From the NCBI RefSeq assembly GCF_024448895.1, contig NZ_JAMOIC010000001.1, forward strand, positions 124,001-188,000: a stretch of DNA of 64,000 bases, written 5' to 3'. The notes below the pieces were generated by a model. The model made no database searches, had not been told where the DNA came from, and saw only the letters and a list, made by a program, of their open reading frames with translations. Source of the stretch: Stutzerimonas stutzeri (GTDB taxonomy: Bacteria; Pseudomonadota; Gammaproteobacteria; Pseudomonadales; Pseudomonadaceae). The position numbers and the translations under genes are program-made. Numbering within the stretch: the first letter of the stretch is position 1; each line of letters begins with the position of its first letter. This document shows positions 9,840-34,395 of this stretch, one piece after another.

Positions 9840-11452
9840 ACCACCGCCCTTACTTTGTCCTCGACCAATTTGGTTAGCCGCTCAAGGCTAGGAGCGGGGT
9901 AGAGAAATACGTGGACGCACAGATCCGCGAAGGGAGATTTCTCCGTGAGGTCGGCTGCGAATTGCTCAAATAGCGCTGCCGTTTCCCCCTCTAATTCATC
10001 TTCGTGACCCAGCGTTTCAGGGTCGGTGAGCAGGTGAGAGTCATAGCCCACAAATAGGACGAAAGTGAAGCGATCAAGGTGGGCATCAAAGGGCCGGCTG
10101 CCATCTAGGATTTCGTCGATATCGTGGCGAAGCAGGTAGTCGTCGTCTTTGACGTCGAGGATCTTGCTGCGCGCAGAATCGAAGCAGTCCGAGATATCCT
10201 CGTACAGCCGATCCCGTATCTCCGGCAACCGGACAGCGACGTCAATATCAGTCACCAACTCACTGAAGCCAATCCAAAGTTGATCACCTTCTGGATCGCG
10301 GCGAACGATATGCACGTTTTCAAGGATTTTTTCTGGCCCTGATCTTTCCACGTGCAGCATGCAGGGTATGGGCTGGCTTTCATGGTGCTGGCGGATCGTG
10401 GCGTGCAATAGCACCCGGCCCAAAAACTCCCCGACATCGTGGAGCGATTTGAAGACGGACGTTCGCAGCCGCTCGCGCTTTTCCACGAGCGTCAGCTTGT
10501 GGATATCGGCCATTTCTTTAGGCCGAAGAAAGACCTCATCCAACCATTGGCAGACGTTGTCCACTATGTGTCTGTAGCGGTATCGTTTAAGCGAATACTG
10601 CTGATATAGAACCTGCCCCTTACGCTTAGCGCAGACCGAAGTCATAGGCGCTCCGAATGGCATAAGGATGTGCGGCAAGTCCCGCCTGACGTAGATCTTT
10701 CGGCCTGAGCGAGACTGGTCATCCTCGACGCGCAACTTGAACCAGTCAAAGAGATCAGTCCGTGTGTAGGACTTGTCATCAACACTGTGGATCCGTCGTG
10801 AATGCTCGCCCTTGCGCGTCACGGTATCGAGGATACGGAGCCATATGTCTTCGGCGACGGTTTCGGAACTGAGAATAACGCCGTGCAGATCCTGGGAGGC
10901 CATCCGTATGTTTTTGATCCCCAGAAGTTCCAGTTCGCGCACGGTGTGATAGATCTGCCAGCTTGCAGCGTCGACCCAGTCGGCGACGGTGACGCCTGAC
11001 GGAGTCTGGTAGCCCTCCGTGCGCTTATTGAGGTCGTCGATCAGTTCCTGCCGTCCTGACTTGCCTGCCCTGGCTGTTGAGCTGATCGTCAGGTACTCCA
11101 AGGTTTTGTTCACCTTATCTTCGGTGACGATCGAATACCTTCGGGACAGGCCGAGGCTGGACTTGCACTGCATCGACTTGTGCAATATTGAGCTGCAGGG
11201 GATTGTTTTTTTATCGGCCCCCTTGGAATTCAGGACGATGTCGGAAATATTCCAGCGCGTTTTCTCGGTACTTTTCACCTGCACGAAGTCGACGTGTCCG
11301 TCAGATACGATGTCGATATCGTCCGTGACCTCGCAGCGAACACTGCGGATAGTCTTATCACGAAGCATTCGGGTTACATGGTATGCGGCTACACAGTCTT
11401 GGAATAGGAAACCGTGCTTGGCGGCAACACCGCCCGAATCATTTGATTCCAT
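9836..11452 (-). CDS. Cap4-like (DUF4297) nuclease with HamA-like C-terminus
   Basis: A 538-residue protein from the ATG at 11452; the frame is open to 11617 but that part overlaps the end of brxL and has no domain. The N-terminus matches the DUF4297/Cap4 nuclease: GGVAAKHGFLFQDCVAAYHV, then DDIDIV and HVDFVQVKS (Asp55, Gln58-x-Lys60, the QxK form of the PD-(D/E)XK core). The last 150 residues (RPFDAHLDRFTFVLFVGYDS and VHVFLYPAPSLERL) resemble the end of DUF1837, the HamA domain of Hachiman. I do not see the E-x-K that HamA itself uses, so the Cap4 domain may supply the DNA cutting. The stop overlaps the helicase start by 4 nt. The C-terminal assignment is the weaker part of this call. Confidence 0.65.
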   Translation of the reverse strand: MESNDSGGVAAKHGFLFQDCVAAYHVTRMLRDKTIRSVRCEVTDDIDIVSDGHVDFVQVKSTEKTRWNISDIVLNSKGADKKTIPCSSILHKSMQCKSSLGLSRRYSIVTEDKVNKTLEYLTISSTARAGKSGRQELIDDLNKRTEGYQTPSGVTVADWVDAASWQIYHTVRELELLGIKNIRMASQDLHGVILSSETVAEDIWLRILDTVTRKGEHSRRIHSVDDKSYTRTDLFDWFKLRVEDDQSRSGRKIYVRRDLPHILMPFGAPMTSVCAKRKGQVLYQQYSLKRYRYRHIVDNVCQWLDEVFLRPKEMADIHKLTLVEKRERLRTSVFKSLHDVGEFLGRVLLHATIRQHHESQPIPCMLHVERSGPEKILENVHIVRRDPEGDQLWIGFSELVTDIDVAVRLPEIRDRLYEDISDCFDSARSKILDVKDDDYLLRHDIDEILDGSRPFDAHLDRFTFVLFVGYDSHLLTDPETLGHEDELEGETAALFEQFAADLTEKSPFADLCVHVFLYPAPSLERLTKLVEDKVRAVV

Positions 11453-11606
11453 CTCGACGTCCGTGACAATTTGCCCAGAATCTAGGGGATTCCGACTCCA
11501 TAGTCCATGCAACGGCGGCATTTTGCCACCTGAATGCCGAGAGGCAGAGCACTGGAATGTCCGATTACGGCGGCTCCGGGAACGGATTGCCGTTATTGAG
11601 TTGAAT

Positions 11607-13658
11607 CTACTCAACAATCGCCTTTAAAAACGCGTCCCTAGCATCCTGATAAAACTGAATGTCGATCTTCGTCGCCATATCATCAGACAGATCATAGAGC
11701 TGGCGGCGGCAAGTGACCGGCATCAGCAGCGCACTAGCCCCCTTCTCCACCGCCAATTCGGCGATGCTCACCGGGTTAAGCACCGGCTCGATGGACCCAC
11801 CCAGGTTGATCTCACCCACCACAATCAAGCCGCCCCGAACAGACTTCTTCAGCAGACTGCTGCACATCGCGATAAGCGCGGCCACGCCGAGCTTAGAGCC
11901 GCGCTTGGCGGCGTCGAAAGCTCGCAACTGAACAGTGAATTCATGCGCGCGAGGATCGCGGTCACCAATCAGCTGGGAGGCACGAGCGTAGAGATTTTGC
12001 TCGGCGTAACGCACCGACTCCTTGAAGGCTGGCGGCACTGGATTGTTGAGGATCTTCACTCCAGAACCTGGCCCTTCGTTGACCTCAATCCGGTAAAGCC
12101 CCGCGTTATCATCGATCTCCGCCCCACCCTCGCTGATTGTCCAGATCTGGCCAGGCTCGAGGGGGTCGTCACCAATCTCGTTATCCGCACGCAGCTCAGG
12201 GGTTGCAACGAATTTCTCAACGCCGTCATCACCGATGAAGTAGCTGAAGTGGGTGTTTCGAAACTCAGCAGAGCCGATACGCTTCTGCTGCTCTTTGACC
12301 CGTCGGCGCACCTCAAGAGCGAGCCGCGTTGCCCACTCCAGGTCTTCATCTGCAACCGTCTGAGATGAGTCGGGATAGAGCAGCTTGAGAAGTCCGGACG
12401 CCGTCTTGTTCACCGCATTGGTATCTCGGCCGCTCAAAGCGCCGCCCAGATGGACTCGGTTTTGCAGCGCACTGACCCTACTTTCGTAGCGGAGACGGCT
12501 CAGGCACTCCGAGAAAAAATCACTCACTAGCCCGAAATGATCGGTGGTCAGCTCTCGATTCATCTTGGGCACATCCCAGCCAGGTAGGAAGCAGTGAATC
12601 CGATCCATCCAGGCGGTGTCATCACGCATTTCCTGAGGCAGCGGCCCAAACAGATGCCCCACTCGCTGCTGGTGCTCAACGTCTACATCGAAATTTCCCA
12701 CGAAAACCAGCGAACCATCGGCACGGATACTCTCCTTGCCGCGGCTGAATTCGCCGGACTCCATATACCCTTTCATGATGTTGATGCCTTCCTTCGAGTC
12801 GAAGGAAATGCCACTGATCTCGTCAAAGCAGACCACGTCGTATTGGCACACCAGGCCTCTCTGGCCGCTGGCGTTATTGACGAACATCTTGGCAATGGTG
12901 GCCTTGCCGCCAGAGATCAGATGCGCATAGGGGGAGACCTGCTGAAACAGATGGCTTTTACCCGTACCGCGGGGACCCAGCTCTACCAGGTTGTAGTTCC
13001 GCTCAACGAACGGAACCATACGAAGCAGGAGCGCATCCTTGGCTCGGGCATCTAACCTCTCAGGTTCAAGGCCGATGGACCTCAGCAGAAAGTCCTTCCA
13101 CTCCTCACTGCTGAATGTTTTTCGCGCCTCGCCAAGGGTGTCGAGCACGTCGCGCTTCGAAAGTTGAATGGGCCGCAGATCCTGCACGCCAAAAGGATTA
13201 CCGCGCTCCTCCGCTATCGCGGGATCGTATTCCAACGTGATTTCCGCATAGAAACCACCCGTGAGCAGGCGCTCGTTATCGTCCACTAACTTATCTGCGA
13301 TACGAACGTTTGTGAGCTGCACGCTGGGCAGGCTTGCGAGATAACCGTTGTCTTTCTGGCTAAAGCGCGCACTTACAAGATCAATCAACTTCACCGTGCC
13401 GTTCTTGTATGCACGTGCCTTGAACAGCTCCTCCTCGCCGGCCTTTACGGTCCGGGAGGAAAGCTGACGTTCTACGATTTCGATACCCTCTTCGATCTCA
13501 TCGGGATCGGTGCTGGCGCAGTATCGACCCAACAAAAACTCGACAACATAGGTCGGCACAGGGAATTGCCTGGCAAAGGTTCTGACCAGATCCTTGCGGA
13601 CGATATATCCCTCAAAGGCTGCCGCAGCTTTCGAGTCAAGAGTATCCAATTCGATCAC
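11607..13658 (-). CDS. brxL: BREX Lon-like ATPase BrxL
   Basis: A 683-residue protein and the last gene of the BREX type 1 set. An N-terminal domain precedes an AAA+ core with Walker A GPRGTGKS (residues 228-235) and Walker B VVCFDEISG, and the C-terminus has the Lon-protease fold (GLIVVGEINLGGSIEPV). Where active Lon proteases carry the serine motif GPSAG, this protein reads RGSKLG, so proteolysis is doubtful and a DNA-translocating ring role is more likely. The start is GTG, overlapping the pglZ stop as GTGA, with GGAG seven bases upstream. A small palindrome (TTGAGT/ACTCAA, 11596-11614) spans the stop codon. In known BREX systems BrxL is needed for phage restriction but not for methylation. 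Confidence 0.92.
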   Translation of the reverse strand: MIELDTLDSKAAAAFEGYIVRKDLVRTFARQFPVPTYVVEFLLGRYCASTDPDEIEEGIEIVERQLSSRTVKAGEEELFKARAYKNGTVKLIDLVSARFSQKDNGYLASLPSVQLTNVRIADKLVDDNERLLTGGFYAEITLEYDPAIAEERGNPFGVQDLRPIQLSKRDVLDTLGEARKTFSSEEWKDFLLRSIGLEPERLDARAKDALLLRMVPFVERNYNLVELGPRGTGKSHLFQQVSPYAHLISGGKATIAKMFVNNASGQRGLVCQYDVVCFDEISGISFDSKEGINIMKGYMESGEFSRGKESIRADGSLVFVGNFDVDVEHQQRVGHLFGPLPQEMRDDTAWMDRIHCFLPGWDVPKMNRELTTDHFGLVSDFFSECLSRLRYESRVSALQNRVHLGGALSGRDTNAVNKTASGLLKLLYPDSSQTVADEDLEWATRLALEVRRRVKEQQKRIGSAEFRNTHFSYFIGDDGVEKFVATPELRADNEIGDDPLEPGQIWTISEGGAEIDDNAGLYRIEVNEGPGSGVKILNNPVPPAFKESVRYAEQNLYARASQLIGDRDPRAHEFTVQLRAFDAAKRGSKLGVAALIAMCSSLLKKSVRGGLIVVGEINLGGSIEPVLNPVSIAELAVEKGASALLMPVTCRRQLYDLSDDMATKIDIQFYQDARDAFLKAIVE

Positions 13659-15976
13659 GCTTCATCTCCAACCAAGGTCGCCTGCTTAGCGAGCACGTTC
13701 CCAGCGCTGTCCAGCACTACTACCACAACTGCATCTCCCTCCCGATCATCGTCCTCCACCGGCAGGCTGCACTTGCCCCCCTTGAGGTTTTTAGTGCGCA
13801 CAAGCGAGGTTGTCGGATCTGCAGGGCTGCTGCGCAGATCGACAACCAGATCGGTAGAACTGCTTTGCACCTCAACACGACAGGTCAAGCCCAACCACTG
13901 CACCTTTGTGATAGCCGCAGCACTTAGCTTCATCGACGGCGCAGATGTACTGAGCACTTCGATGATCGGCGTCAAACACTCCTGCAGGCTCAAGCCGCCG
14001 TGATCATAGTGACGCCCAGCAAGGAAGGCACTGGCTCCAGGTGCAACGGCAATGGTTTGCTCCGGATTCCAGTGCCAATTGACGGTTGGCAGATTGGTTT
14101 GAACGGTGCCTTTGATTTCAGCACAGCGAGCCCAGCGCACCTCTGCAAGGTGCTTGGGTAGATCAACTTTAGCCATTGGCTGTGGCGTCAAAAGCCAACC
14201 GTGATCCGTGACGATACGGATTTTTCGCCAGCCGGCCTGCAGTAGCTCCTCAATGCGCAGGTATACGTCCTGCAGCAGAGCATCAATCCGGCCTGCCAGA
14301 CGCAGATTGTCTGTGTGGCCTGCTTCATCGATATTGCCGGTCTGCACCCAGGCCAATCCTTGAGGATCACCATTCTCCTCAGCCCCCAGGACCTGCCAAC
14401 CGCCCTCCTCCATTAACTTTCGGAAGTAATAAGCGCTCAGCGGCTTGTCTTCACTCTTCAAGCTAGGCTGGAAGTCGGTATCGGTTTGGCGTCCCGTTAC
14501 CTGCTGATGAATCGGCATGACGGCAGCTTTGGCCGTGGCCGTCACGGAAGGCAGCGCTGCCCAGTTTGATTGCTGTCGAACCTTTCCCAAGCTTTGCAGG
14601 CGACCGACCAAACGCTGCGCCACGTCATAGCGCAGCCCATCGACAAAGAAAACGACTTCACTGGAGGTTTGATAGGTGGCAACAGCTTCATTCACGCCGT
14701 CGCTCCCCGGATAGCCTTTCGCTCTCACCAGCTGCTGGAAGTTTAGCGCCGTCTCGTGCAGCCAGGGCGTATACAGGCTGTTGAGGATATCCCTCACCAA
14801 CAATTGCATTGACGGTTCTCGGGCCATCGCCAGGGCCCGGAGTTGAGCATCGTCAACGACCCAGTAATGGCTCCGATAATGCTCGGCCATTTCCTCGGGA
14901 GAGGTACCGGAAAGACCACTATCTCCAACTGTTTTAGCAATCAGTACCAGCGGTTCGAGCAACTGGGCGATAGGAGCCGAACCCATTTCCGCCCACACCC
15001 ATGACCGACGAACGCCATGGTGGACATCAAGATCAATCAGCCCCTTACGCAGCTCGTTGCTACCGCAAGTGGAAAGCGAACGCAGCTGCGCCAACAGATC
15101 GTTTTCCTGCTGCTGGTTATAGCTCGGATAGGTCGAAACATCCGCTGCCAAATCTGGCTGACACCGCATCAAGACACTAGGCAGCCTTGAAAAAGCAGCG
15201 GTGTTCTCAATGAACCGTTCCCAGACACGCACCCATGGCCCCAACCGGGCGCAGAGATTCTCTGCCGCGACTAGATCGCCATCTTTTTCTGGGTTGACCA
15301 AAAATTCGCTATGGCAGATGCCGACAAAGGCATCCCAACGGGGCCCTGCCCAACTGGCCTGCACACCCTTGCTGTCGCTGAGCCACATCAGCACATCTCG
15401 TACGCTGTCAGTACTGAGAAGCTGGTTGAAGTCACTGGCCTCCAGTCGTCGCCCATGGAGTTGTGAAACATCAGTATCGAGCAATGGCTCAAGCGCACGC
15501 AGCATTGCTGTCTGGGTTTTGGCGTCCTGAGCAACATCCAGCACCAAGCCACCAGCGCGAGAAATCAAATACGCATTGACGGTCCAGTCCTTGGCGTTCA
15601 CCTGGCTCCACAGCACGCCGCGATACTGCAACTCGGCCAAGGGCTGCAGCTCCACAGGGCATGCAGTGATCGCCCGCAAATCCTGCCGGCTTACCCCTGG
15701 TAAATAGATGATCGGGGTCTGGGCAACCGGGAGGGAAATCTCAGGCAACGCATCTGCGATTACACACTTGAGCCATATGGCCGGGCCTTGCCGGTGATCG
15801 GGCTTGTACCTCCCGAGCGAAAAAAGCTCTGGAAGCGCACTTTGGAGTCGACCAAGTACAGGCAACCACTCTCGATCCTTGTCAGGCCAAAGGATCGCTG
15901 TCGGTGCAACCTGGGAACTGGCGTTGTACTGCGCTGCAGCACGAAGGCTCGCAGCCAAAGCCTCAAGTACGGTCAT
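13655..15976 (-). CDS. pglZ: BREX phosphatase-fold protein PglZ (type B)
   Basis: A 773-residue protein from ATG 15976; the frame extends to a TTG at 15994 and a GTG at 15988 with no better ribosome site. The N-terminal half (ILWPDKDREW near residue 30) is typical of PglZ of type 1 BREX. The alkaline-phosphatase-superfamily core lies in the second half: VVFFVDGLRYDVAQRL (metal Asp and following Arg) and RIVTDHGWLLTP (metal Asp-His). PglZ is the hallmark BREX protein; it works with PglX in modification and is required for defence. It sits between the BrxU-like gene (about 40 bases) and brxL (4-nt overlap), the usual order. Confidence 0.9.
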   Translation of the reverse strand: MTVLEALAASLRAAAQYNASSQVAPTAILWPDKDREWLPVLGRLQSALPELFSLGRYKPDHRQGPAIWLKCVIADALPEISLPVAQTPIIYLPGVSRQDLRAITACPVELQPLAELQYRGVLWSQVNAKDWTVNAYLISRAGGLVLDVAQDAKTQTAMLRALEPLLDTDVSQLHGRRLEASDFNQLLSTDSVRDVLMWLSDSKGVQASWAGPRWDAFVGICHSEFLVNPEKDGDLVAAENLCARLGPWVRVWERFIENTAAFSRLPSVLMRCQPDLAADVSTYPSYNQQQENDLLAQLRSLSTCGSNELRKGLIDLDVHHGVRRSWVWAEMGSAPIAQLLEPLVLIAKTVGDSGLSGTSPEEMAEHYRSHYWVVDDAQLRALAMAREPSMQLLVRDILNSLYTPWLHETALNFQQLVRAKGYPGSDGVNEAVATYQTSSEVVFFVDGLRYDVAQRLVGRLQSLGKVRQQSNWAALPSVTATAKAAVMPIHQQVTGRQTDTDFQPSLKSEDKPLSAYYFRKLMEEGGWQVLGAEENGDPQGLAWVQTGNIDEAGHTDNLRLAGRIDALLQDVYLRIEELLQAGWRKIRIVTDHGWLLTPQPMAKVDLPKHLAEVRWARCAEIKGTVQTNLPTVNWHWNPEQTIAVAPGASAFLAGRHYDHGGLSLQECLTPIIEVLSTSAPSMKLSAAAITKVQWLGLTCRVEVQSSSTDLVVDLRSSPADPTTSLVRTKNLKGGKCSLPVEDDDREGDAVVVVVLDSAGNVLAKQATLVGDEA

Positions 15977-16015
15977 CAATTTGCTCACAATCAAAAACAG
16001 AAAGTGCCTGAATCG

Positions 16016-17689
16016 CTACGCCAAACGCCAGCTGGCAGAAAGCGCTTTCAAAAGATCCTTCTGGCGAGCTTCAACCTGCGCAGGTGTCCACTCATGCTGG
16101 TGCAACACTTGGCTCGTCAAAGCATACGGCGTTACGCCACTGCTACCGGCAAAATACGCGGACTTTTTCTTGGCAAAGTCATAGTTCAAGGCCTTGGAAT
16201 TTCGGGCACGCGTCAGAGGCACCAGGTTCGCCAAGCGATGCAACCATGTCATCCGCATAACGGCGTCTGGCCAAGTGGTTGCCCACTCGCTAGAAGGATC
16301 AACAGTTTGAGGCAGGATGTGCTCAATTGTCAGGACATTCGGCGTGTAGTTCGCCGCCATCGCGGAGACAAATGAGTCCAGGCGCAGGATCAAATAGTTG
16401 CGACGCCGGGCGGTCATCTCATAGACGTTCCCATCCAGAGCTCGCAACATCTCAGCGCACTCACCTGGCGTTAGCTCGACTCGGTCAACGTAAACCCCTT
16501 TCAGAATGTCCTCGATGACCAGGGCATAACGCTCGATACGCTGGTTCACATTCTTGGCGGTCAGGTGCAGGAAGGCTGCTAGGCGTTCAAGCCGAGAAAT
16601 GAAGTCCAACACAGCCGCGGCATCGTTGCCTTGTCGGGCTAGGAAGGCAATCGCCACGGGTAACCAGTCTGAGTTGTCAATTCTGTTCAGCCACGTGAAC
16701 AGCTCGTTAATTTTTTCTGCCGATGAAGTCGAGACGTACTGGCACTGTTTGGCGATCAAATAGGCCTCTGCGTAGGGCGCAACCACCTCATCGACCAAAG
16801 CCTCAGAGGACGTCACCTGACTCAGCACGTGATCCTTGAACTCCTCAAGCAGCATGCGCCGAGCCTTAAAGCGAGCATAGATCATCCGAATATGACCAAA
16901 AAGCTCGTTAAAGCCATCGCGGCCGGTCGCAACCTCAAGGTCTTCCCAGCGGTCGTTGAAAGCTTCACGCTTGTCTTCCGGAAGCTTGCCGATAACTTCC
17001 GCTTTAATGATATCTGTCGGTAGAAGATCCAAGCCTCGGTTGTTCAAAACAGAGAAGACCCTGAAGGCCGACTGTTGACTTGGGGTGGTGACAGTAACCA
17101 GAAAGCAGCGCATCAACAGAAATGAGCCGAAGTCGACCAAAACGGCCTCATCACCTCGAAATTTTTCCTGAATCCGCTCGATCAACAGGCGAGCATTACC
17201 CTGAATGTTTCGCTGCGACTCATTCGCAAGTTGCGCAGGATCAATCTGCACCAGATCAGCAAATCGCAACCCCTGAACATACTGAGCGAAAAATTCTCGA
17301 TCTTTTTCTCTCAAGGCTAAACGCGGTTTTGGATTCAGCTTCAACGCCACGTTACCCGGTTCACGAATAAAGCTATAAAAGGATGTATGGTTGTCCCCAG
17401 ACAAAAGGGACGTCAGACTTGAGAGCAAAATCGTTAGGGTTGTTAAACGCTGCTGCCCATCAATAACCTCAGCTGCGGGCTTACCCTCATCCTTAATAAG
17501 AACAATCGATCCTAGAAAGTAGCTGTCCTCGACCTCATTCCTAAAAAAATCATAGAGATCATCAAATAGCTCACCCGCCTGATCTTTTGTCCAAGCATAA
17601 GGGCGCTGATAAGGTGGGATGACATAATCGAATTCAGAGCTAAATATTTTTGACAGCGGATACTCGGCACCACTAATTTTTTTGCTCAT
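16016..17689 (-). CDS. DUF262/DUF1524 protein, BrxU/GmrSD-like type IV restriction enzyme
   Basis: A 557-residue protein from the ATG at 17689, preceded by GGAG at good spacing. The N-terminal DUF262 domain shows PPYQRPYAWT and EVIDGQQRLTTLTILL (about residues 25-95), the nucleotide-binding ParB/Srx-like signature of GmrS. The C-terminal DUF1524 domain holds TIEHILPQ, the His-Me finger (HNH) nuclease motif of GmrD, near residue 450. Single-chain GmrSD enzymes cut phage DNA with modified cytosines. BrxU, encoded between pglX and pglZ in an enterobacterial BREX locus, is of this family; the same placement here suggests the same complementary job against modified phages that BREX misses. Confidence 0.85.
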   Translation of the reverse strand: MSKKISGAEYPLSKIFSSEFDYVIPPYQRPYAWTKDQAGELFDDLYDFFRNEVEDSYFLGSIVLIKDEGKPAAEVIDGQQRLTTLTILLSSLTSLLSGDNHTSFYSFIREPGNVALKLNPKPRLALREKDREFFAQYVQGLRFADLVQIDPAQLANESQRNIQGNARLLIERIQEKFRGDEAVLVDFGSFLLMRCFLVTVTTPSQQSAFRVFSVLNNRGLDLLPTDIIKAEVIGKLPEDKREAFNDRWEDLEVATGRDGFNELFGHIRMIYARFKARRMLLEEFKDHVLSQVTSSEALVDEVVAPYAEAYLIAKQCQYVSTSSAEKINELFTWLNRIDNSDWLPVAIAFLARQGNDAAAVLDFISRLERLAAFLHLTAKNVNQRIERYALVIEDILKGVYVDRVELTPGECAEMLRALDGNVYEMTARRRNYLILRLDSFVSAMAANYTPNVLTIEHILPQTVDPSSEWATTWPDAVMRMTWLHRLANLVPLTRARNSKALNYDFAKKKSAYFAGSSGVTPYALTSQVLHQHEWTPAQVEARQKDLLKALSASWRLA

Positions 17690-17708
17690 CCCTAGCTCCA
17701 AATGGATT

Positions 17709-18563
17709 TCACGACTCGAATTTCACAAGCAAAGTGAGAGAGTACTCCTCATTTCGAGTCGCAACGTTCTTATACTCAGCGGACACACCAAATTTACTTG
17801 GCAAATTTAGCTTCCCGACAACCCCAAGGGTACTTTTGGTCTCGTTCGAAAGACTAAGTGTAACCCTCTGCTCACGAATCGGATTGGTCGAATCAGCTCG
17901 CTGCTCAATAAGACTCCGCATGATACGATCGCCCAGAAGGTTCTTACTCCTTAGAAATCGTTCTGCAGCATCTATATCAGCCTCACGCCCGTCCATTGTT
18001 GTGGTGACAATAAACTTACGCGTAAGGCTTTGGTCAGCAGTTGCAGTAATCTTAACGTCACCTTTAACAGGACCAATATTACCTTTAGCTCCGTAAATAG
18101 AAGACTCACCTTCTCGCTTTATCTCAACCTGCTCTGTCTCGACAAAGGTCGCGCCCAACAGTTGGCACAATCTTGAGAAATGGTGAACCTTCTCAATCGC
18201 AAAAACCTCAGCGGCTCGCTCAAGCTCGACATATGAATCTTTCTCATATGGACTCTGAACCAGAACTGCTCCTGGTCGCACCAGATCTGAATAAACGATA
18301 TTCTCTAATGCTTTAGACTGGCCTAAATAATCCTCGCTTGGCGGATACTCAAGTACGAATGCCTCGTCATCATAAAGAAACTCTCGACCTTCAAAGGTTG
18401 GGTCATTTCTAACAAGGCGGATATCATTTTTCTTCAAAACCACTATCGCACGACGCGCACCATGAAAAGCAGGAAATTCACTTTCACTCATTTCTCTCAA
18501 CCCTTTAAAATAATCATCATCAACTAGTGGAGCCGCAGTGGTTACAGGAATGGAAAGAGGCAT
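17709..18563 (-). CDS. Unknown protein of BREX-embedded GTPase cassette (third gene)
   Basis: A 284-residue protein I do not recognise. It appears soluble, mixed alpha/beta, with no signal peptide or membrane segment. The middle has alternating short strands (GAKGNIGPVKGDVKITATAD) and the end reads as amphipathic beta strands (VGKLNLPSKFGVSAEYKNV, then SLTLLVKFES), a pattern seen in beta-rich or pore-like proteins, though I cannot assign it to one. The ATG at 18563 has poor ribosome-site sequence and lies inside the end of the preceding gene (22-nt overlap), so translation probably depends on the upstream gene by coupling or frameshifting. The A10 run just upstream is described separately. 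The GTPase next door suggests a regulated effector. Confidence 0.7.
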   Translation of the reverse strand: MPLSIPVTTAAPLVDDDYFKGLREMSESEFPAFHGARRAIVVLKKNDIRLVRNDPTFEGREFLYDDEAFVLEYPPSEDYLGQSKALENIVYSDLVRPGAVLVQSPYEKDSYVELERAAEVFAIEKVHHFSRLCQLLGATFVETEQVEIKREGESSIYGAKGNIGPVKGDVKITATADQSLTRKFIVTTTMDGREADIDAAERFLRSKNLLGDRIMRSLIEQRADSTNPIREQRVTLSLSNETKSTLGVVGKLNLPSKFGVSAEYKNVATRNEEYSLTLLVKFES

Positions 18564-18976
18564 CCCATGGGTCGCTTTTTTTTTTGCTCTTCAGTTAAAG
18601 CCTGACTGACGACATCTAAGTACGCAGAACTTATAGTGCGATCTATAGAATGAGAGATTTTTGTTAACTGCCGAACCACATCTGCAATCTGATCAGCTCC
18701 TGCCAGATCTATACAAACGGATATCGGAGCGAGACGACCAGCAGCATCTAGCTCTTCTGAAACAATCTCAATCACGCACAAAGGGCCACTACAGAACAGT
18801 TCAACGCCTTCAGACTCAAAGACTTTGTCACCTTCACTGGTCACAGTTGATATTAAGTTAGATGCTTGCTGTCGCTCTGCAGCTGCTCTACTCGGGAGAT
18901 GCCGCCCCTCCATGAACACGTGATCATCCGAGTGATTATCTAGTGCCTGAGCGAATACCGCCAAAACCTTAGGCAT
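18542..18976 (-). CDS. Unknown protein of BREX-embedded GTPase cassette (second gene)
   Basis: A 144-residue soluble protein of unknown family. The first 45 residues are helical and charged; the centre has a beta segment with two cysteines (VELFCSGPLCVIEIVS) and the end is helical, finishing in a lysine run encoded by ten A residues. I chose the ATG at 18976, which overlaps the end of the GTPase gene by 8 nt; the frame is open to a TTG at 18991. The tight overlaps on both sides make it part of one translational unit with the GTPase and the 284-residue protein. It could be an adaptor, or the N-terminal domain of a larger protein if the A10 run is slipped through. Confidence 0.65.
   Translation of the reverse strand: MPKVLAVFAQALDNHSDDHVFMEGRHLPSRAAAERQQASNLISTVTSEGDKVFESEGVELFCSGPLCVIEIVSEELDAAGRLAPISVCIDLAGADQIADVVRQLTKISHSIDRTISSAYLDVVSQALTEEQKKKRPMGCLFPFL
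18576..18585 (-). promoter_or_regulatory. A10 run at gene junction (possible slippage site)
   Basis: Ten consecutive A residues on the coding strand encode the lysines near the end of the 144-residue protein. The frame of the downstream 284-residue protein is -1 relative to it. It is open through the run, with a TGA just before it. One extra A in the transcript, or a -1 ribosomal shift here, would read from the lysine run through ATHG straight into the 284-residue protein. This is seen in the sequence; use as a programmed site is inference, and a homopolymer sequencing error is the plain alternative. Confidence 0.4.
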
Positions 18977-19634
18977 CGTGCATCCAGCCAATAATTTTAA
19001 TCACCAAATCATCAGTATTTGACTGATTATTTAAGCCGCCCAGATATAGGCTTGGCATGGTCTTGAAGCTACTAAAGCAACGCTGAAGCTTACCGACAAA
19101 TCGATCATGGAAATCTCCTTGCTCATTCTCCTTGAGCATAACGAATCCTTTATCTAGGTCCATGTGAGTAGCAACAACTAGCAGTCGTGGTTTGCTTTTA
19201 TGTTTTTCCTGCCACTCATTTATCAATTTGAGGTCATATTCTACTCGCCCCACATCCATTTCATGGGCTTTAATCAAATAGATAACAAAATCTGATGCAT
19301 CATGCAGCTCTTTCCACTGCTGTATGGCTGCTTCACCACCAGGAAGGTCCTTAGTTTCTTTCAGGTCAAGCTGCAAATCTTTTAACTTTAAACGATTGGC
19401 AGCAACACGCTTTGCTGATGTCGTTTGAGCGTTGCCTTTGGGCAACTCGCCTTTAGACAAGAAAGTTAACAGAGTGGTTTTACCCGATCCTCTTGCCCCA
19501 AGAACAGTGACTTTCTTGCCCCTCAGAGCAATCACTAATGAGTCCCAGGCTGCAACGACTTTGTCGCGTTTAACCCAGCCCCAAACTCCGACTGCGAGTC
19601 CACCCACTGCTGCCGCTACTATTTGCCAAGCCAT
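18969..19634 (-). CDS. Membrane-anchored small GTPase (BREX-embedded cassette, first gene)
   Basis: A 221-residue protein with a strong ribosome site (AAGGAG, seven bases before ATG). An N-terminal hydrophobic segment (IVAAAVGGLAVGVWGW, residues 5-20) suggests a membrane anchor. The GTPase domain follows: G1 GARGSGKT (residues 46-53), a G3-like DLPGG (in place of DxxG), and G4 THMD (in place of NKxD). The G4 variant resembles that of Arf/Ras-like bacterial GTPases found beside signalling or defence genes. It begins 35 bases after pglX and overlaps the next gene by 8 nt. Inserted between pglX and the BrxU-like gene, it is not part of the standard BREX set. Its likely role is a nucleotide-dependent switch or sensor for the two unknown proteins that follow. 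Confidence 0.8.
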   Translation of the reverse strand: MAWQIVAAAVGGLAVGVWGWVKRDKVVAAWDSLVIALRGKKVTVLGARGSGKTTLLTFLSKGELPKGNAQTTSAKRVAANRLKLKDLQLDLKETKDLPGGEAAIQQWKELHDASDFVIYLIKAHEMDVGRVEYDLKLINEWQEKHKSKPRLLVVATHMDLDKGFVMLKENEQGDFHDRFVGKLQRCFSSFKTMPSLYLGGLNNQSNTDDLVIKIIGWMHDA

Positions 19635-19669
19635 GAAAACTCCTTTTTAAATATTAATACTCAAAGCTT

Positions 19670-22600
19670 CTATCGTTTAGCCAATTTTTTCTCGGCCAAG
19701 GACAGGTGATGGTCGTTGATGCGGGCGCCTTCTTTTTCGCCGTACTCAAGGCCCAGGGTGTACCAGGGGGCACTGGGGACGTCGTTGCCGCGGTCTTTTT
19801 TCCACTCGATGTTGAGCTTGGGCTTTTTGTTGTGGCGCAGAACTTCGGCGGTCATAAAGGGGCGGATGTTGAGGCGCACACCGTCGTTGAGGTCAGGATT
19901 CCAGCCAATTGGCTGCTGCTCCAGTGGCTTCCACCGTACGAAGATGTCGTAAGGAGCTTCGCCTTCAAGGATACGAACCAAGCGGGCTTTTAGATCTTGT
20001 GCTGCAGCCAGGCGGGTATCGGCGCCGTCTACCTTCTCACTAGCAGCGCGCTGCTGGTTGCTGATCCAGGTATCAAGGTAGGTATAGATCAGCCGCTCCA
20101 GGTTGTTGCGGTCGAGCTTATGATAGTTGACCAGGGCGCTAAAGCCGTCTTTGAGGCCATCCCAGACTTGCCAGATAAAGGGACTATGAAGAAACAATCT
20201 ACAGTGCTGCTCGAAGAACTTGTCACGCAGCCACGCATCCAGACTTTTCGCTCCGACCTGCTCCAAAAGCTGATTGCGACACTGCGGCGTCCAATTCACA
20301 CCAAATGCCGCATGCAGCAGGAGCTCAAGTCGCTCAGCAGCGGCTTTCTCACCGCGCAGCGGTGACAAGCAAACAATACCGTCATCGTCAGCCAGGAGAT
20401 TCAACTCAGCACTGCGTTTGATAAAGACTCGGGCCTCATCGGAGAGTGCCATCGCGGCATCCGACTCAGCGGGCCACTGATAGCCAAGCAAGCGAGCAAC
20501 TGCTACATGCAGCGGTTCACTAGCAGGCTCAGGGTGGCCATGGAAGACCCATTGGATGGGATCGTTTGAATACGGTTTGGGCAGGCCGTCGGGGTAAAGC
20601 CTACCTGCGACCTCCCGCCAATACGAAGCATCAAATGGAACTTTTAGAAAAGTTGCATTAGTTACGTTAACTTTTTGATCAATACGACGGACTGAATCAT
20701 AAAAATCACTTGATGAACAAAAAGCATATACGGCAGCCAGGTCATTTTCATCCTTCGGCACCAAAGCTGAAACATTGCTATCAAAGGCATAGCCAGCATA
20801 ACGAGCAACAGGGAGGCTACTCATCTGACTGACGGCCACTCCAGGCCTTCCCCAAACATCAACACCACGCCGCCAAGACCCACCCAATCGCCCATCCAAA
20901 CTTTTAATATACTCTAAGTAGTCTCCACGCCCCTTACACCAACGCACTGCCTGAGTTAAACCTTGATCGACGCCTTTGCCATTTGAAGTGCTTTGCTGGA
21001 GCTCCCAATCATTGCCCCTGTCTATTACTTCCCAAAATCGCCTACCCCACCGAGGATAGTCACCCGTGTTAATACCAGCCAATGCCATTGCAAAGTTCTG
21101 AAGAAGACTGCTCTCCGATGCTGCAAGCAAGGAAACACGAGCATCAGGATTTTTAAGCTGCAGATTCTGCTTCACGGCTAGTATCTCGGCTATTTCTAAG
21201 CATTTCGCTTTCTCCTCTGCCGACTTGAGCGAGCTAACATCAACCCCCCTTAAAACGGAATCGCCATCTGGTACCAGCTTGACTAAAGTAAGTAGCTGTA
21301 CATTAAAATCCCACATTGGTGTTTGAAATCCCTTTGCCCCAAGCAAGGACAAAAGGCTCCAACGCACAGTCTTAAGCAGGTTCTCACGCTGTTTTTTATA
21401 GCTCCCAAGGAACAGCCAATTTTGAGGCATGACTATCTGCACCGCCCCGTTGACTGAAGCCAGTTCTAAGCAGCGTTCAAGAAACACATTAGCCAGATCG
21501 TTCTTGGCGAGTTCATAGTTGCTTTCACAGAACGCCCTAAGAGTCTCGCACTGCTTACCACGTGCTAAATAGGGTACGTTAGTAATCACTAATTGATAGC
21601 GATGCCCGAGTAACTCTGCAGCTCTAGCCAACCCTTGAGCTGCAATAGCCGCCTCTTTCAGGTCGCCCTCACCTACGTCTCCGACTGAAAGCGCCTTGCT
21701 CAGAAGAGGCTGCACTTGGCTCCAATCAGCCGTAAGCAAGTCACCTTTCAGACTGCGAGTAGGATCAATCAGAGAGCCGAGAATCGGCGCATCACGGAAG
21801 GTGTCGTAAAGGCGTGCCATGCCGGCTTTGAGCTCAGGGTTATCGCCGGCCAATGCCAGCCACTGCTCACGCGGCGTCTGAATCCGCTGTCCCACACAAG
21901 CGATATTGAGCGTCGGCAGATTGCGGTACCCCCCGGCACCTGGATAACGCCAAGCTTCTAGAGCCACCGCAAATGCTGCCAGCTCGACACAACGCTGATC
22001 CAGCTCCAAACCATGGAGGTTCTGGCTGATAACCGCATCAATGGCTTGATCTGCTGACAGGCCTTCGGCAGCTATACGCATCGGCACCAGCATCAACAAG
22101 GTGGCTACGAGGAAATGGCCCGAGCCGCAGCACGGATCCAGCATCTTGAATTGCGTCAGGTTTTGCGGCCAACCGTCGAAAGTGCCTGCGGCGGGCACCT
22201 GTGCATCTGCGGTCGAATCATCTTCGGCAGATGCCGGCACCGTGCGCAGGTAGGTGAGTGGCAGCAGATCACGGTGATGCGGGTAGTGGGTCACCCACCA
22301 GGCCCCCAGGCTGTTATCCAGCAGGAACTGCACCATGTAGGGCTCGGTGAACAGCTGGGTTACAGGCGACAACTCGTCGGCACCGATCTTCACGCCCGAG
22401 GCGTTCACTTCATCCTTTTTCTTGGCCTGCCAGTATTGGTAGACCCAGCCCAAGCTATCGGCCGCCTGGAAGGTGGCTTTGTCCAGGTCGGCAATCAGCT
22501 TTTCCAACGCACGTACGTGGTTAAAGGCCAGGGGCACCGCCAACGCGGGTGAGTCGGCACGAAAAACTTGGGGCAGCATGCGTGATGCCAGCTTGCCGGC

Positions 22601-22996
22601 CAGCTCCCAGCCATTGGCGCAACCTTCATCCGCCGCCAGCTCCTGGCACTCTTCCAGGGTAAGTGCGGTATGCGGGTCATACATCAGCAGATGGTTCTGC
22701 TCCAGGAAGCGCGCGAACAGCATGCGGTGCCAATGCTCGTAGGCAATCTCCACACAAAGGCGCTGAGTTTCCTGCTGGCCGGTACGGGCATCTCGCAGAT
22801 CCCCCAGCTGGCGACCATGGGCACGTAGTCGGTTGCGCAGCGCCCGCTGCTCGTCATCCAGGTAACTGGCCGGGCTAGCATCGCCAACGCTGAGTCGGGT
22901 GAGCGCCTCTTGCGCGGCCTGCTCGGCGATATCGCGCGCCTTGATGACGGTGGTTTCCAGTTGCTTGCGAAGCTTTTTGTCGAGGAACTCGCGCAT
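19670..22996 (-). CDS. pglX: BREX type 1 adenine-specific DNA methyltransferase PglX
   Basis: A 1108-residue methyltransferase, close to the usual length of about 1200. S-adenosylmethionine-binding motif I is DPCCGSGHFLVATL (near residue 290) and the catalytic motif is TNVPYLARGKQ, the NVPY form of the NPPY motif seen in BREX PglX. Predicted role: N6-adenine methylation of the host BREX site, marking self DNA. The C-terminal half should hold the target recognition region. AAGGA precedes the ATG. It is separated from brxC by 160 bases holding a strong hairpin, the only real gap among the upstream BREX genes, so its dose may be set separately. Confidence 0.93.
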   Translation of the reverse strand: MREFLDKKLRKQLETTVIKARDIAEQAAQEALTRLSVGDASPASYLDDEQRALRNRLRAHGRQLGDLRDARTGQQETQRLCVEIAYEHWHRMLFARFLEQNHLLMYDPHTALTLEECQELAADEGCANGWELAGKLASRMLPQVFRADSPALAVPLAFNHVRALEKLIADLDKATFQAADSLGWVYQYWQAKKKDEVNASGVKIGADELSPVTQLFTEPYMVQFLLDNSLGAWWVTHYPHHRDLLPLTYLRTVPASAEDDSTADAQVPAAGTFDGWPQNLTQFKMLDPCCGSGHFLVATLLMLVPMRIAAEGLSADQAIDAVISQNLHGLELDQRCVELAAFAVALEAWRYPGAGGYRNLPTLNIACVGQRIQTPREQWLALAGDNPELKAGMARLYDTFRDAPILGSLIDPTRSLKGDLLTADWSQVQPLLSKALSVGDVGEGDLKEAAIAAQGLARAAELLGHRYQLVITNVPYLARGKQCETLRAFCESNYELAKNDLANVFLERCLELASVNGAVQIVMPQNWLFLGSYKKQRENLLKTVRWSLLSLLGAKGFQTPMWDFNVQLLTLVKLVPDGDSVLRGVDVSSLKSAEEKAKCLEIAEILAVKQNLQLKNPDARVSLLAASESSLLQNFAMALAGINTGDYPRWGRRFWEVIDRGNDWELQQSTSNGKGVDQGLTQAVRWCKGRGDYLEYIKSLDGRLGGSWRRGVDVWGRPGVAVSQMSSLPVARYAGYAFDSNVSALVPKDENDLAAVYAFCSSSDFYDSVRRIDQKVNVTNATFLKVPFDASYWREVAGRLYPDGLPKPYSNDPIQWVFHGHPEPASEPLHVAVARLLGYQWPAESDAAMALSDEARVFIKRSAELNLLADDDGIVCLSPLRGEKAAAERLELLLHAAFGVNWTPQCRNQLLEQVGAKSLDAWLRDKFFEQHCRLFLHSPFIWQVWDGLKDGFSALVNYHKLDRNNLERLIYTYLDTWISNQQRAASEKVDGADTRLAAAQDLKARLVRILEGEAPYDIFVRWKPLEQQPIGWNPDLNDGVRLNIRPFMTAEVLRHNKKPKLNIEWKKDRGNDVPSAPWYTLGLEYGEKEGARINDHHLSLAEKKLAKR

Positions 22997-23156: not shown

Positions 23157-26100
23157 TCAGACCATCACGGGGCCTTCCGCCAGCTTGGCCAGCAGCTGAG
23201 CCTCGATTTCCGTCAACCATTGGCGTAGCTGCGCTTCGTTTTCGAAGGTGCGCTTGGGCAAGCTGACATGCTGAACCTTGGGTTGCAGCAGCTTGACCGC
23301 TTCCTGGCGGGCGCTTTCAAACTTGGCAGCCAGGCTATCTTTGCGATCAGTCCATTGTTCCAGGCTGGTGGTTTCCAGACTATCGATGACTTCTTCGCGG
23401 CTGCCGAGGTGAAGTCCTTCAGGCACAATCAGGCCGCGGCGAGTAAGCAGCTCACTCTGCTGAGCAGCGGAGAGCTGCTGCCAGTGACTATCAGCCGCCA
23501 GCTCTGCCTGACGCTTTTGGTATTCGGTTTGGAAGGCGCGGAAGTGGTGGTTGATCGCCTCACGCAACTGGCTGACAGTGGTGCTGATCAGGCTCTCGAG
23601 CGGATTGGGCTCGGCCAATAGGCTGCGATTGCTCTTGATGGCATCCACTTCGCCACTGAGCTTCTCACCGAAGGCCAGCCCCTTGCTGAGCCGCAGTAGG
23701 GCTTGCAGCAGGTCCCAATCACTGCGGCGAGAACGCAGCTGCTCGCCCAGGCTGCGCCAGGTGTCAAGCAGCGGCTTGATGGCATCCTTGTTATCCAGCA
23801 CCAACTTGAGCTGGGTATTGCCACTTTCCTTGGCGATATCATCAATCAAGCTGGCGTCCGGACGCGCAGGCGCCGGCGCCTCACCGCCTGCCGCATGGTG
23901 CAGCTCGCGAGCCAGGTTGATCAGTGCAGGCAAACGGGCCTGCTCTTCACCAGGCGGACAGTCGATACCCAATGAGCTGATCAGGCCACGAATCTTGATC
24001 AGATCCACAGGGCGAATTGTCACCGTCTCCGGACGGAAGGTGCTCTGGGTGAGTTTCTGACGTTCCAGGCTTTGTGCCGTCAGCGCATTACCGCTGGCAT
24101 CGGTCGCACGCAGTACACCTGCTGCAACCAGGGCGAACAACGCACCATCGATAGTGTCCTGCTGCCAGCCGTAGGGGGCTGCAGCAAACTGATCGCGGAT
24201 CTCGTTGCCTTTCTTGGAGGGGCCGATGTAACGCAGGAGCGAGGCACATACCGGGTGCTTTTCGGTATCGCCACTGAAACCCACAGCTTCCAGGGCGTTC
24301 TGACCACCGTCTTTACGGGCACGGTCGTAGACCTTGGCCCAATGCGGACTGTCGGCCATATCGAATTCGCGGTACAGGCGTACCACGGAAGCTTGAGCGG
24401 CAGTTTGAATGCGCTCGGCAATACTATTGCCGTCGACTTCCGCACCGCCGGCTTGCAGCACTTGCACACCCGAAAGGATTTCCTTAAGAAGCTGGTCGAC
24501 CTGCTTCTGTGCATCGCGCTGACGGGTTTCCATGGCCTTACGAGCATCATTGCCCGCTTCGGTATTGGGCATGCCGCGCAGGCTCAGGGTCGCATCAGCG
24601 GCTTCCTGGTGGATGATGGCGTTGTTCAACTCGGAACGGTTTCGCGCCAGGATATAGAGGTAAAGCGTCGGCAGATCCGGGTTGGCTTTACGCGCCTCAG
24701 CCAGAAAGGATGATTCGTTCAGGCTCCAGCCATCCTGTACCCAGAGGTAGATTTTCTGGTTGGCATCTTTGGGCACTTCTGCATCGAAGCAGGCGATTAC
24801 CTGGCGGTTTTCTTTGCACACGCCTTGGGTTACACGGACCTTGGCCAGTTCGGACTTGATCTGCTTGTGCAGCAGGTCGATCCGGAAGTTCTCAACACGC
24901 TGCATGTTGCCGCGCAGGTCGGCCTCCTGCTGGCGGAAGGTGTCGTACCACTGGGCGCTTTCTTGGGTTTGTAGGCGGTACTCGACACCGGCACTGGTCT
25001 CCATGGCCATCAGTTGACCATTCTTGGCCATGGCCTCCAGTTGAACGGGGATGCGCGCGCGCAGCTCGTCTTTGCCCTGGTTGAGGTTGTCTATCAGAAG
25101 GTCGGCCAGCATGTCGGCGGTGGCGCGTACACCACAGTCGGCAATCGAGTCTGTCGGCAGCTTGCCAATTAGCAGAATCAGCGAGAGCAGACGCGACTGC
25201 AGTTGCTGGTCGTCATTACCAGCGGACAGCTCGGCAATGCGCTCGTAGTCCTCCTTAGAGATGACGCCGGTCTGCAACAGATTGGGCGCGATCTGCTGGT
25301 AGATAAAGTCGCCGGGGACGATATTGCCTAACTCTTTTTCGGCCGTGGCCTTGGCGGCCTCATGGATGACTTTGAGCTGGTTACGCAGCTGCGAAACAGT
25401 GCCGGTGGTATCGACAATACGCAGCACCTTCTCCCAGAAGCGGCGACGCACAGGCAATAGCGGGTAGTCGGCCAGCATAACCTTCTCGTCATCTTGGTGA
25501 TACTCCACCTTGGTGCCCCGCAGATGACGAGAGATTTCGCCCAGGTGCTTGGTCAGAAGCGCCTGCAGCCCGGCACGAGCGCTCTCGACCTTCTGCAGAA
25601 TGACCTTACGAATGACCGACTCCACATCGGTGTCGCTAAGCATGATAGGAATCTGGAAACGGCCCATCAGGCGCATCAAATTTGGCATACCGGACAGCGC
25701 ATTCTGGCCGGTCGCAATGAACAACAGACGATTACCGAAAGCCGAGTGTTTACAGCAGGTCTCAACGACCTCCTGGATCATGTGTGCACGGTCTACATCG
25801 TTACCCACGTATTGCTGGACTTCGTCGAGCACGACCAGAGTTAGCGGGAACTGGCCGTCACGGTCCAGAGCATCTGCAATGGCCTGAACCATTTGATCGT
25901 TGGTCACATCGGTGACTGTCGGGAATTGACCTTTGAGCAGTTGATGCACGCCCTGAGCGTCATTGGCCATATCTGGGTAGGCCGCGAGCAAGGCATTAGC
26001 AATTAATGGCGAGACGTACAGCTTGCTCAGCTCACGCTCCCAGGGTTTGCCGGCATCTGCTACTGTCTGTTTAACGGCATCGAAGTAGCCTTGCTCTTTC

Positions 26101-26621
26101 AGCCAGAGGACAAAACGAGCCTGGTGGTACTGCTCCGGCAGGCCCGCCGACTTGAAGATGATGCCCAACAGTGCGAGGCGCACATTGTTGTTCGCACCAG
26201 CACCGAGCGTGCCGGATGCAGCATGCAGGCCTCCATAGCGACGCGACTGAATGCTCAGCTCTTTGAATGCGTCTGCAACGTTCTGCGGCAGGTTGGCAAT
26301 ATGGCGCGCAGTAAGGCCGTCCGGGAAAGCCTGGTCGACCCACAGGGTGCGCAGCATCTTGGCCATGTGCGACTTACCCGAACCGAAGAAGCCGCTGATC
26401 CATACACCCGGCTGCTCATGATTGCTGCCCAGGTTGCGCAGGTAGGTGGACAGGATCTTGTCCATACCAGCCTGGTACTCACCTTCACAGACGAACGTCT
26501 TGAGCTCATAACGAAGGGTGTTGAGCGCCTGCTCGGACAGATCGTCCTTCACTTCGGCGACCCCGTTGTTGGCCAGGCGGTTTTCCAGCGGATCGTTCAG
26601 GTAGATTTCGCGGTTAAGCAT
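23157..26621 (-). CDS. brxC: BREX P-loop ATPase BrxC
   Basis: A 1154-residue protein of the BrxC/PglY family. The P-loop is GFFGSGKS (residues 77-84, preceded by GVWIS) and Walker B is LVVLDEVQQYVG (near residue 255); the rest is long and helix-rich, as in other BrxC proteins. BrxC is needed for both phage restriction and PglX-dependent methylation in known systems and probably works as a large ATP-driven assembly with BrxB, PglX and PglZ. The ATG is preceded by AGGGA and lies 22 bases after brxB. Confidence 0.92.
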   Translation of the reverse strand: MLNREIYLNDPLENRLANNGVAEVKDDLSEQALNTLRYELKTFVCEGEYQAGMDKILSTYLRNLGSNHEQPGVWISGFFGSGKSHMAKMLRTLWVDQAFPDGLTARHIANLPQNVADAFKELSIQSRRYGGLHAASGTLGAGANNNVRLALLGIIFKSAGLPEQYHQARFVLWLKEQGYFDAVKQTVADAGKPWERELSKLYVSPLIANALLAAYPDMANDAQGVHQLLKGQFPTVTDVTNDQMVQAIADALDRDGQFPLTLVVLDEVQQYVGNDVDRAHMIQEVVETCCKHSAFGNRLLFIATGQNALSGMPNLMRLMGRFQIPIMLSDTDVESVIRKVILQKVESARAGLQALLTKHLGEISRHLRGTKVEYHQDDEKVMLADYPLLPVRRRFWEKVLRIVDTTGTVSQLRNQLKVIHEAAKATAEKELGNIVPGDFIYQQIAPNLLQTGVISKEDYERIAELSAGNDDQQLQSRLLSLILLIGKLPTDSIADCGVRATADMLADLLIDNLNQGKDELRARIPVQLEAMAKNGQLMAMETSAGVEYRLQTQESAQWYDTFRQQEADLRGNMQRVENFRIDLLHKQIKSELAKVRVTQGVCKENRQVIACFDAEVPKDANQKIYLWVQDGWSLNESSFLAEARKANPDLPTLYLYILARNRSELNNAIIHQEAADATLSLRGMPNTEAGNDARKAMETRQRDAQKQVDQLLKEILSGVQVLQAGGAEVDGNSIAERIQTAAQASVVRLYREFDMADSPHWAKVYDRARKDGGQNALEAVGFSGDTEKHPVCASLLRYIGPSKKGNEIRDQFAAAPYGWQQDTIDGALFALVAAGVLRATDASGNALTAQSLERQKLTQSTFRPETVTIRPVDLIKIRGLISSLGIDCPPGEEQARLPALINLARELHHAAGGEAPAPARPDASLIDDIAKESGNTQLKLVLDNKDAIKPLLDTWRSLGEQLRSRRSDWDLLQALLRLSKGLAFGEKLSGEVDAIKSNRSLLAEPNPLESLISTTVSQLREAINHHFRAFQTEYQKRQAELAADSHWQQLSAAQQSELLTRRGLIVPEGLHLGSREEVIDSLETTSLEQWTDRKDSLAAKFESARQEAVKLLQPKVQHVSLPKRTFENEAQLRQWLTEIEAQLLAKLAEGPVMV

Positions 26622-29450: not shown

Positions 29451-29528
29451 CCATGAACCCGATCAAACATATAAGTAGCAATTATAGATCCGAGGCAGAA
29501 GAAGCAAGCCGCTGCATAACGCAGGCAC

Positions 29529-33253: not shown

Positions 33254-33272
33254 CCCTCATTTCAACCTTATC

Positions 33273-33305
33273 GCCCGGTCAGCTTCGCGCTGGTCGGGCT
33301 TTTTT
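33273..33305 (+). terminator. Terminator after DUF932 gene
   Basis: GCCCGgtCAGC pairs with GCTGgtCGGGC across a short loop, and is followed directly by six T residues. Confidence 0.75.
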
Positions 33306-33325
33306 ATGCCCGTAAGGTGAACAGC

Positions 33326-34330: not shown

Positions 34331-34354
34331 TTACCCCTATCGCTTCCCTCCCAT

Positions 34355-34395
34355 GGCCAGCCCATGCAGTTAGCGCTGCCTGGCTGGCCTTTTTT
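34355..34395 (+). terminator. Terminator after YqaJ gene
   Basis: GGCCAGCC (34355-34362) pairs with GGCTGGCC (34382-34389), followed by six T residues. Confidence 0.7.

Follow-up and report, generated by a model that had tools for sequence, protein, structure and literature searches.

A recurrent small-GTPase gene trio in the accessory slot of a Stutzerimonas stutzeri BREX operon, a candidate mobile anti-phage module

A 64,000-nucleotide (nt) stretch of Stutzerimonas stutzeri DNA, which we refer to as the window, carries an apparently intact BREX (bacteriophage exclusion) operon that hosts, between pglX and a GmrSD-family (BrxU-like) gene, three further genes, here called the GTPase, Mid and Eff genes and together the trio. 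The order of genes on the minus strand is pglX, GTPase, Mid, Eff, GmrSD, pglZ and brxL, followed by the genes for HamA and HamB, and the trio lies inside the operon and on the same strand, 35 nt after pglX. Its members (aa, amino acids) are:

18969..19634, minus strand: small GTPase of 221 aa with an Arf-like P-loop domain (Pfam Arf, 2.1e-7) and a hydrophobic N-terminal segment
18542..18976, minus strand: Mid, a proposed adaptor or regulator of 144 aa counted from its ATG, scoring above no family cut-off
17709..18491, minus strand: Eff, a proposed effector of 260 aa counted from its probable start, with no match in Pfam, NCBIfam or PADLOC

All three genes are present, and their order is unchanged, in every one of the six genomes in which the trio was found, that is, in the window and in five other Pseudomonadaceae: G007, P. 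frederiksbergensis SI8 (G834), G743, P. paracarnis (the same as G1396) and P. congelans DSM 14939. These six genomes represent three sequence clades, the trios of G743 and P. paracarnis being nearly identical. Relative to the window copy, the five other copies share 41-42% identity in the GTPase, 27-33% in Mid and 42-46% in Eff. Among the three close copies of G007, P. frederiksbergensis and P. congelans, the ratio of non-synonymous to synonymous substitution rates (dN/dS) is 0.16-0.26 for the GTPase, 0.15-0.23 for Mid and 0.09-0.16 for Eff, indicating purifying selection; the remaining pairs are saturated or nearly identical and hence uninformative.

The trio is rare. A search with the window GTPase across 292 relatives, its own genome included, yielded one other full-length relative, G007; 15 of the 17 genomes with a match, all weak and short P-loop ones (E 1.6e-5 to 9.9e-4), were left out at that stage. 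A two-row GTPase profile matched 4 of 398 genomes of the family, again counting its own, while a two-row Eff profile matched its own genome only among 369 genomes of the class and a six-row Eff profile matched 2 of the 374 genomes searched in the genus to which G743 belongs. With a six-row GTPase profile, 369 genomes of the phylum gave the window's own genome and two probably unrelated frames; these two matches, in a 446-aa frame that is probably Der, were dropped. A contig scan with two degenerate peptides, which can miss relatives, recovered three loci, those of P. congelans DSM 14939, P. frederiksbergensis SI8 and P. paracarnis. No plasmid copy was found when Eff and the GTPase (Mid was not searched) were run by tblastn against 72,556 records, nor did phages match the GTPase and one Eff, E. 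coli genomes match in a search at the DNA level only, or viral contigs match a few peptide patterns each.

The cassette had been picked out in an earlier note, made from the letters of the window, as an unnamed group of overlapping or nearly overlapping genes between pglX and a BrxU-like gene, in the slot that accessory defence genes such as BrxU occupy. Its open reading frames (ORFs), its position and the use of the slot were all borne out, with overlaps of 8 nt between GTPase and Mid and 22 nt between Mid and the Eff ORF. The note's 144- and 284-residue proteins do lack a family match, but the second has a probable start that shortens it. From its first ATG (18563) the Eff ORF spans 17709-18563 on the minus strand and encodes 284 aa; the inner ATG at 18491 (260 aa) is the more probable start because the G743-clade protein begins there and because an inner GTG stands behind AAGGGGAG at the Eff-start position in G007, P. 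frederiksbergensis and P. congelans. For Mid, an alternative TTG five codons upstream of the ATG would give 149 aa. A scan of promoter-like and terminator-like signals showed no clear excess (5 against 3.3 expected, and 2 against 2.7).

The GTPase, which falls in the Arf-like TRAFAC class, contains, in order, the motifs G1 (GARGSGKT), G3 (D96-LPG99, of the form DxPG) and G4 (THMD), and the positions G46..G51-K52, D96-x-P98-G99 and T156-H157-M158-D159 are invariant in all six proteins. T53 is replaced by serine in the G743 clade, and the G4 motif has H in place of K. The window protein scores 31.1 bits with the Pfam Arf model, passing its gathering threshold of 22.3, and the six-member profile matches Arl1/Arl3 structures at about 3e-6; PADLOC 2.0.0 returned weak P-loop matches only (at most 15.8 bits). 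Its intact G motifs suggest that the protein could act as a switch. The N-terminal segment is hydrophobic but borderline, with a best 19-residue hydropathy of 1.53 in the window and 1.40-1.82 in the relatives, so that membrane anchoring is likely. The earlier note's membrane-anchored small GTPase with G1 GARGSGKT and G4 THMD is thus confirmed in its G domain and in both motifs, which fall at invariant positions, while the anchor should be read as likely.

Mid and Eff gave nothing credible against Pfam, NCBIfam, PADLOC, PHROGs and PDB sequences. Stray matches to Ribonuclease H (0.17), Rab11 (0.49), L11 (1.2), REX1B (0.029), Calycin_like (0.099) and CARD (0.24), together with one to DUF7822 (0.0083, in one member only), were set aside as not credible. 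The six Mid proteins align with 22 invariant columns, and the relatives are longer (160-171 aa) by a C-terminal tail that is absent from the window copy and, in the G743 clade, strongly amphipathic. As the earlier note had suggested, the structure of Eff alone was modelled, using AlphaFold2 with four sequences. The model (mean predicted local distance difference test, pLDDT, 51.1; predicted template modelling score, pTM, 0.52) places an alpha/beta arrangement in the N-terminal half and strands plus two helices in the C-terminal half, with the last 50 residues unreliable, and at this pLDDT its fold cannot be named. Alternating strand-like stretches in the C-terminal half brought to mind a pore-forming effector of gasdermin- or MACPF-like type, which we do not claim on so poor a model. 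That Eff acts as an effector is suggested by its genomic context.

This context differs between copies and yet repeatedly involves defence or mobile genes. No BREX gene was found within the 21-32 kb around any of the five other copies (tblastn with 13 window proteins, 1e-3). PglZ was not found in the G834, G743 and P. congelans genomes (0 of 3 at 1e-5; the same query matched 7 of 194 genomes elsewhere, and an empty answer alone proves little), nor in G007 at 1e-60; for P. paracarnis the locus only was searched, with no genome-wide search for PglZ. The G007 trio is flanked by mobile genes only (tRNA-Arg, an integrase and transposases), with no known defence gene among the neighbours scanned. 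That of P. frederiksbergensis SI8 lies near an integrase adjoining ssrA and beside a patatin-dynamin gene and two dynamin genes. The G743 neighbours are Gabija GajA/GajB, a YobI-ATPase and a protein with a sub-threshold PLD match, and those of P. paracarnis are the same, as judged by ORF synteny and not by domain scan. Next after the P. congelans trio comes a SIR2-nSTAND gene. BREX/Hachiman, Gabija, SIR2-STAND, patatin-dynamin genes and integrases therefore make up its recurrent surroundings. As an observation in its own right, the P. frederiksbergensis neighbours (L024:1053-9083) comprise a patatin-dynamin fusion of 1238 aa and two dynamin-type genes, one of them with Sel1 repeats.

The host locus itself is organised as follows:

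15978..19684, no strand assigned: swappable slot between pglX and pglZ, holding the trio and GmrSD here and SUKH-1, 558-aa and 323-aa genes in the relative G032
16016..17701, minus strand: GmrSD-family (BrxU-like) gene sharing the slot (GmrSD_N 6.8e-39, GmrSD_C 3.2e-22; PADLOC Orf5 4.1e-159)
19670-22996, 23157-26621, 26644-27249 and 27182-27961, minus strand: BREX pglX, brxC, brxB and brxA, assigned by tblastn synteny with eight other BREX loci
13655-15994 and 11607-13658, minus strand: BREX pglZ and brxL (PADLOC PglZ 7.4e-292, BrxL 1.3e-298)

Several of the eight compared loci are incomplete, and the brxA and brxB products, which match in four of the eight, are named by position. One of the compared loci is that of G032, a close relative whose BREX backbone proteins are 92-96% (BrxA-C), 79% (PglX), 97% (PglZ) and 99.7% (BrxL) identical to those of the window. 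The flanks of the slot share 82% and 96% nucleotide identity, whereas the slot itself is unalignable, the alignment ending at 19685 and resuming at 15977. In its place G032 (L033:11161-14362) carries another unnamed cassette: a SUKH-1 protein, a 558-aa protein without a Pfam match and a 323-aa protein, itself not scanned, whose C-terminal end is hydrophobic. The trio was also absent from seven further BREX relatives examined, in which the slot holds GmrSD and other genes, AAA-type or Schlafen-type genes, or no convincing gene (G185), as far as some of the proteins were scanned. One of these, G079 (L034:9001-12949), where the examined stretch stops short of pglX, has a GmrSD gene of 83% identity and, upstream of it, a gene of HSP70 type plus two more that were not scanned. 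Intervals of this kind are common, since about 7000 of about 9000 pglZ-pglX loci hold genes between the two and about 5000 of them are without a known system (PMC11341690). BrxU, however, is not tied to one slot, since brxU of pEFER is located between brxC and pglX (PMC8565348).

Because five of the six copies have no BREX genes nearby and the BREX backbone of a close relative holds an unrelated cassette, we regard the trio as an independent, rare and mobile module rather than a part of BREX, and most likely as one that serves in defence. The earlier note had offered two options, an independent module and one that assists BREX, of which only the first is supported. Its position inside the operon, on the same strand and just behind pglX, is what would be expected of an accessory that modulates BREX itself; with the other copies standing where neither BREX genes nor, in the genomes searched, PglZ could be found, we consider such a role very improbable. 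Rather than matching a named system or occurring once at a random position, as the note had allowed for, the trio recurs as a unit in five other genomes and belongs to no named family. Somewhat less improbable, though still hard to favour, is a non-defence module in which a housekeeping-type small GTPase and its partners would act at membranes or in polarity while riding on islands. The Arf/Arl-like G domain and the lack of a recognised effector domain would suit this idea; nearly all searched relatives, however, do without the trio (4 of 398 with the GTPase profile, 2 of 374 with the Eff profile), and all six copies are found among mobile or defence genes.

Within Mid we noted a candidate site of -1 frameshifting, with two associated features:

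18575..18581, minus strand: in-frame slippery heptamer A_AAA_AAG, part of an A10 run (T10 on the plus strand, 18576-18585)
17709..18575, minus strand: -1 frame, without a stop from the heptamer across a linker of 28 codons into Eff, which would give a Mid-Eff fusion of about 422 aa

The A10 run is the sole homopolymer of at least nine in the window, nine A/T being the length at which selection against slippage is visible in many genomes (PMC1088944). An in-frame heptamer lies at an invariant Lys-Lys in all six Mid genes, as A_AAA_AAG in four and A_AAA_AAA in two, and the -1 frame runs into Eff in four copies (window, G007, P. frederiksbergensis and P. congelans), through linkers of 28 to 48 codons. 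In the last three, a GGGAGG resembling a Shine-Dalgarno (SD) sequence lies 16 nt upstream of the heptamer and a hairpin begins 7 nt downstream (-13.1, -13.1 and -17.9 kcal/mol for G007, P. frederiksbergensis and P. congelans, respectively), that of P. congelans having an A-U pair where the other two carry an A.C mismatch; the three copies are related and hence not three independent cases. The motif A_AA.A_AA.G is among the most efficient in E. coli given stimulators, and the usual hairpin distance is 5-8 nt (PMC4066793). Hairpin stability was reached by 2.7%, 2.4% and 0.07% of synonymous recodings (3000 each, same order), and by 0.7% and 0 of 300 dinucleotide shuffles of the 45 nt downstream in P. 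frederiksbergensis and P. congelans. Of 22 heptamer sites in 224 mechanically called ORFs from 14 loci, seven lie in the six Mid genes, and a hairpin of -13 kcal/mol or below occurs at three of the 22, all in Mid, compared with 0.3% of 1,344 random sites.

The explanation that we favour as a whole, and to which we give a probability of roughly one half (0.48), is that the trio moves horizontally between islands of Pseudomonadaceae as an independent module, most likely an anti-phage one, that here occupies a BREX accessory slot and works as follows. The GTPase would be anchored to the inner membrane through its N-terminal segment and switch with its nucleotide state; Mid would be the adaptor that reads this switch, its C-terminal tail in the relatives being membrane-seeking; and Eff, as executioner, would probably damage the host cell once set free. 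Some ribosomes (or some transcripts, at the A10 run of the window) are predicted to slip by -1 at A_AAA_AA(A/G) in Mid, which would remove the Mid tail and, in four of the six copies, fuse Mid to Eff, so that a small, fixed proportion would exist as tethered adaptor-effector. The stronger claim, that the trio is a novel immune system whose membrane-held Arf-like GTPase governs an effector, and that -1 frameshifting or slippage in transcription yields a fixed minority of fusion protein by which recoding sets its trigger threshold, we hold to be unlikely as it stands.

Several observations weigh against the favoured explanation. No toxin, nuclease or sensor domain is detectable in Mid or Eff, and, the trio being rare, the argument from context is carried by three sequence clades. 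As for the slip, a -1 shift in G743 and P. paracarnis would lead to a 22-codon alternative tail and no fusion. An open -1 frame is ordinary (26-48% of synonymous recodings stay open to the Mid stop), and in the window the -1 frame before that stop is too short to be informative. The window hairpin is weak (-5.7 kcal/mol, with 13% of recodings as stable), as is that of the G743 clade, and dinucleotide shuffles are as stable in 10% of cases for G007, 60% for the window, 51% for G743 and 42% for P. paracarnis. Across the overlap, which is as variable as the rest of Mid, the -1 frame shows 6 synonymous against 36 non-synonymous codon changes (three pairs summed) and thus no protein-level constraint, compared with 23 and 20 in the Mid frame; some proven frameshift cases likewise lack reduced synonymous variation (PMC4066793).

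It is a serious possibility, somewhat short of even odds, that the A-run in Mid reflects chance, a sequencing or assembly slip, or phase variation by replication slippage, with Mid and Eff made as separate proteins only. Long A-runs mutate easily, the window Mid lacks the tail present in its relatives, the two copies with an A9 run give no fusion, and the unconstrained -1 frame and weak window hairpin point the same way. What this alternative explains poorly is that the heptamer is kept in all six copies although the window Mid is just 27-33% identical to the others, and that three copies combine it with a hairpin at close-to-textbook spacing. A toxin-antitoxin or addiction cassette that stabilises its host islands, with Eff as a toxin silenced by Mid and the GTPase, would account for small overlapping genes on mobile islands, for the apparent translation start of Eff itself and for the purifying selection; yet Pfam, NCBIfam and PADLOC gave no toxin-antitoxin family match, the plasmid search described above found no copy of Eff or the GTPase, and three genes including a GTPase are not a known toxin-antitoxin plan. 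We judge this arrangement a contender with a small but real chance.

The trio gives concrete, portable content of about 2 kb to the pglX-pglZ interval, with copies outside BREX. Should it prove to act in defence, prokaryotic immunity would gain a small-GTPase switch: apart from GTPase-centred systems (PMC7159879), we found no small-GTPase phage defence of this form described in the open-licence literature, which is no proof of novelty, and the word GTPase is absent from the main text of PMC12839542. The frameshift, if genuine, would link recoding with how an immune effector is controlled; here too no case of recoding in a defence system was found in the open-licence literature, again without this proving novelty.

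Other features of the locus deserve mention. Directly behind brxL lies a Hachiman pair (7656-11617), HamA, with an N-terminal Cap4 nuclease domain and an 11-nt overlap with brxL, and HamB. HamA follows BrxL in G032 too, with 96% identity over the 351 aa compared, and for this reason BREX and Hachiman may travel as one block. Beside Hachiman, a PDDEXK_4 nuclease-like gene (6193-7365) matches the PADLOC candidate PDC-S26. A stretch of pglX (20647-21349) has no nucleotide-level alignment to the pglX of G032, which is similar elsewhere, and is perhaps a swapped target-recognition part. Upstream of brxA (28440-31664) are a CoiA_N-like gene of 336 aa and a 711-aa gene with a sub-threshold NERD match, and the region 32285-41154 contains DUF932, YqaJ recombinase-like and DUF3987 genes, which are typical of mobile elements.

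Among known systems, the DO-GTPase/GAP1 conflict systems, for which immunity is predicted but unproven, resemble the trio in combining a GTPase, a constant partner and an effector, some with membrane segments (PMC7159879). The trio differs in that its GTPase is Arf-like and scores 14.9 bits with the DO-GTPase2 profile against a cut-off of 27 bits, in that neither Mid nor Eff matches GAP1, and in the absence of an invariant glutamate beside G3, since E93, the putative counterpart of the Walker-B glutamate in DO-GTPases, is replaced by alanine in one clade. BrxU/GmrSD and PARIS, nested between pglX and pglZ, are likewise independent modules co-located with BREX in the same slot (PMC11341690); the trio, however, has no GmrSD domain and matches none of the PARIS profiles in PADLOC. 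Bacterial dynamin-type systems (LeoABC and similar) also place GTPases in defence islands, and one trio copy adjoins dynamin-type genes, but the trio GTPase has a single small G domain within 221 aa and matches no Leo profile. Finally, the IS911/IS3-type -1 frameshift cassettes share with three trio copies A_AAA_AAG, an SD-like GGGAGG 16 nt upstream and a hairpin 7 nt downstream, and dnaX is a further -1 frameshift case for comparison. Unlike these, the window copy is without a strong hairpin, and the predicted slip would join a small protein of no named family to the candidate effector of an island module.

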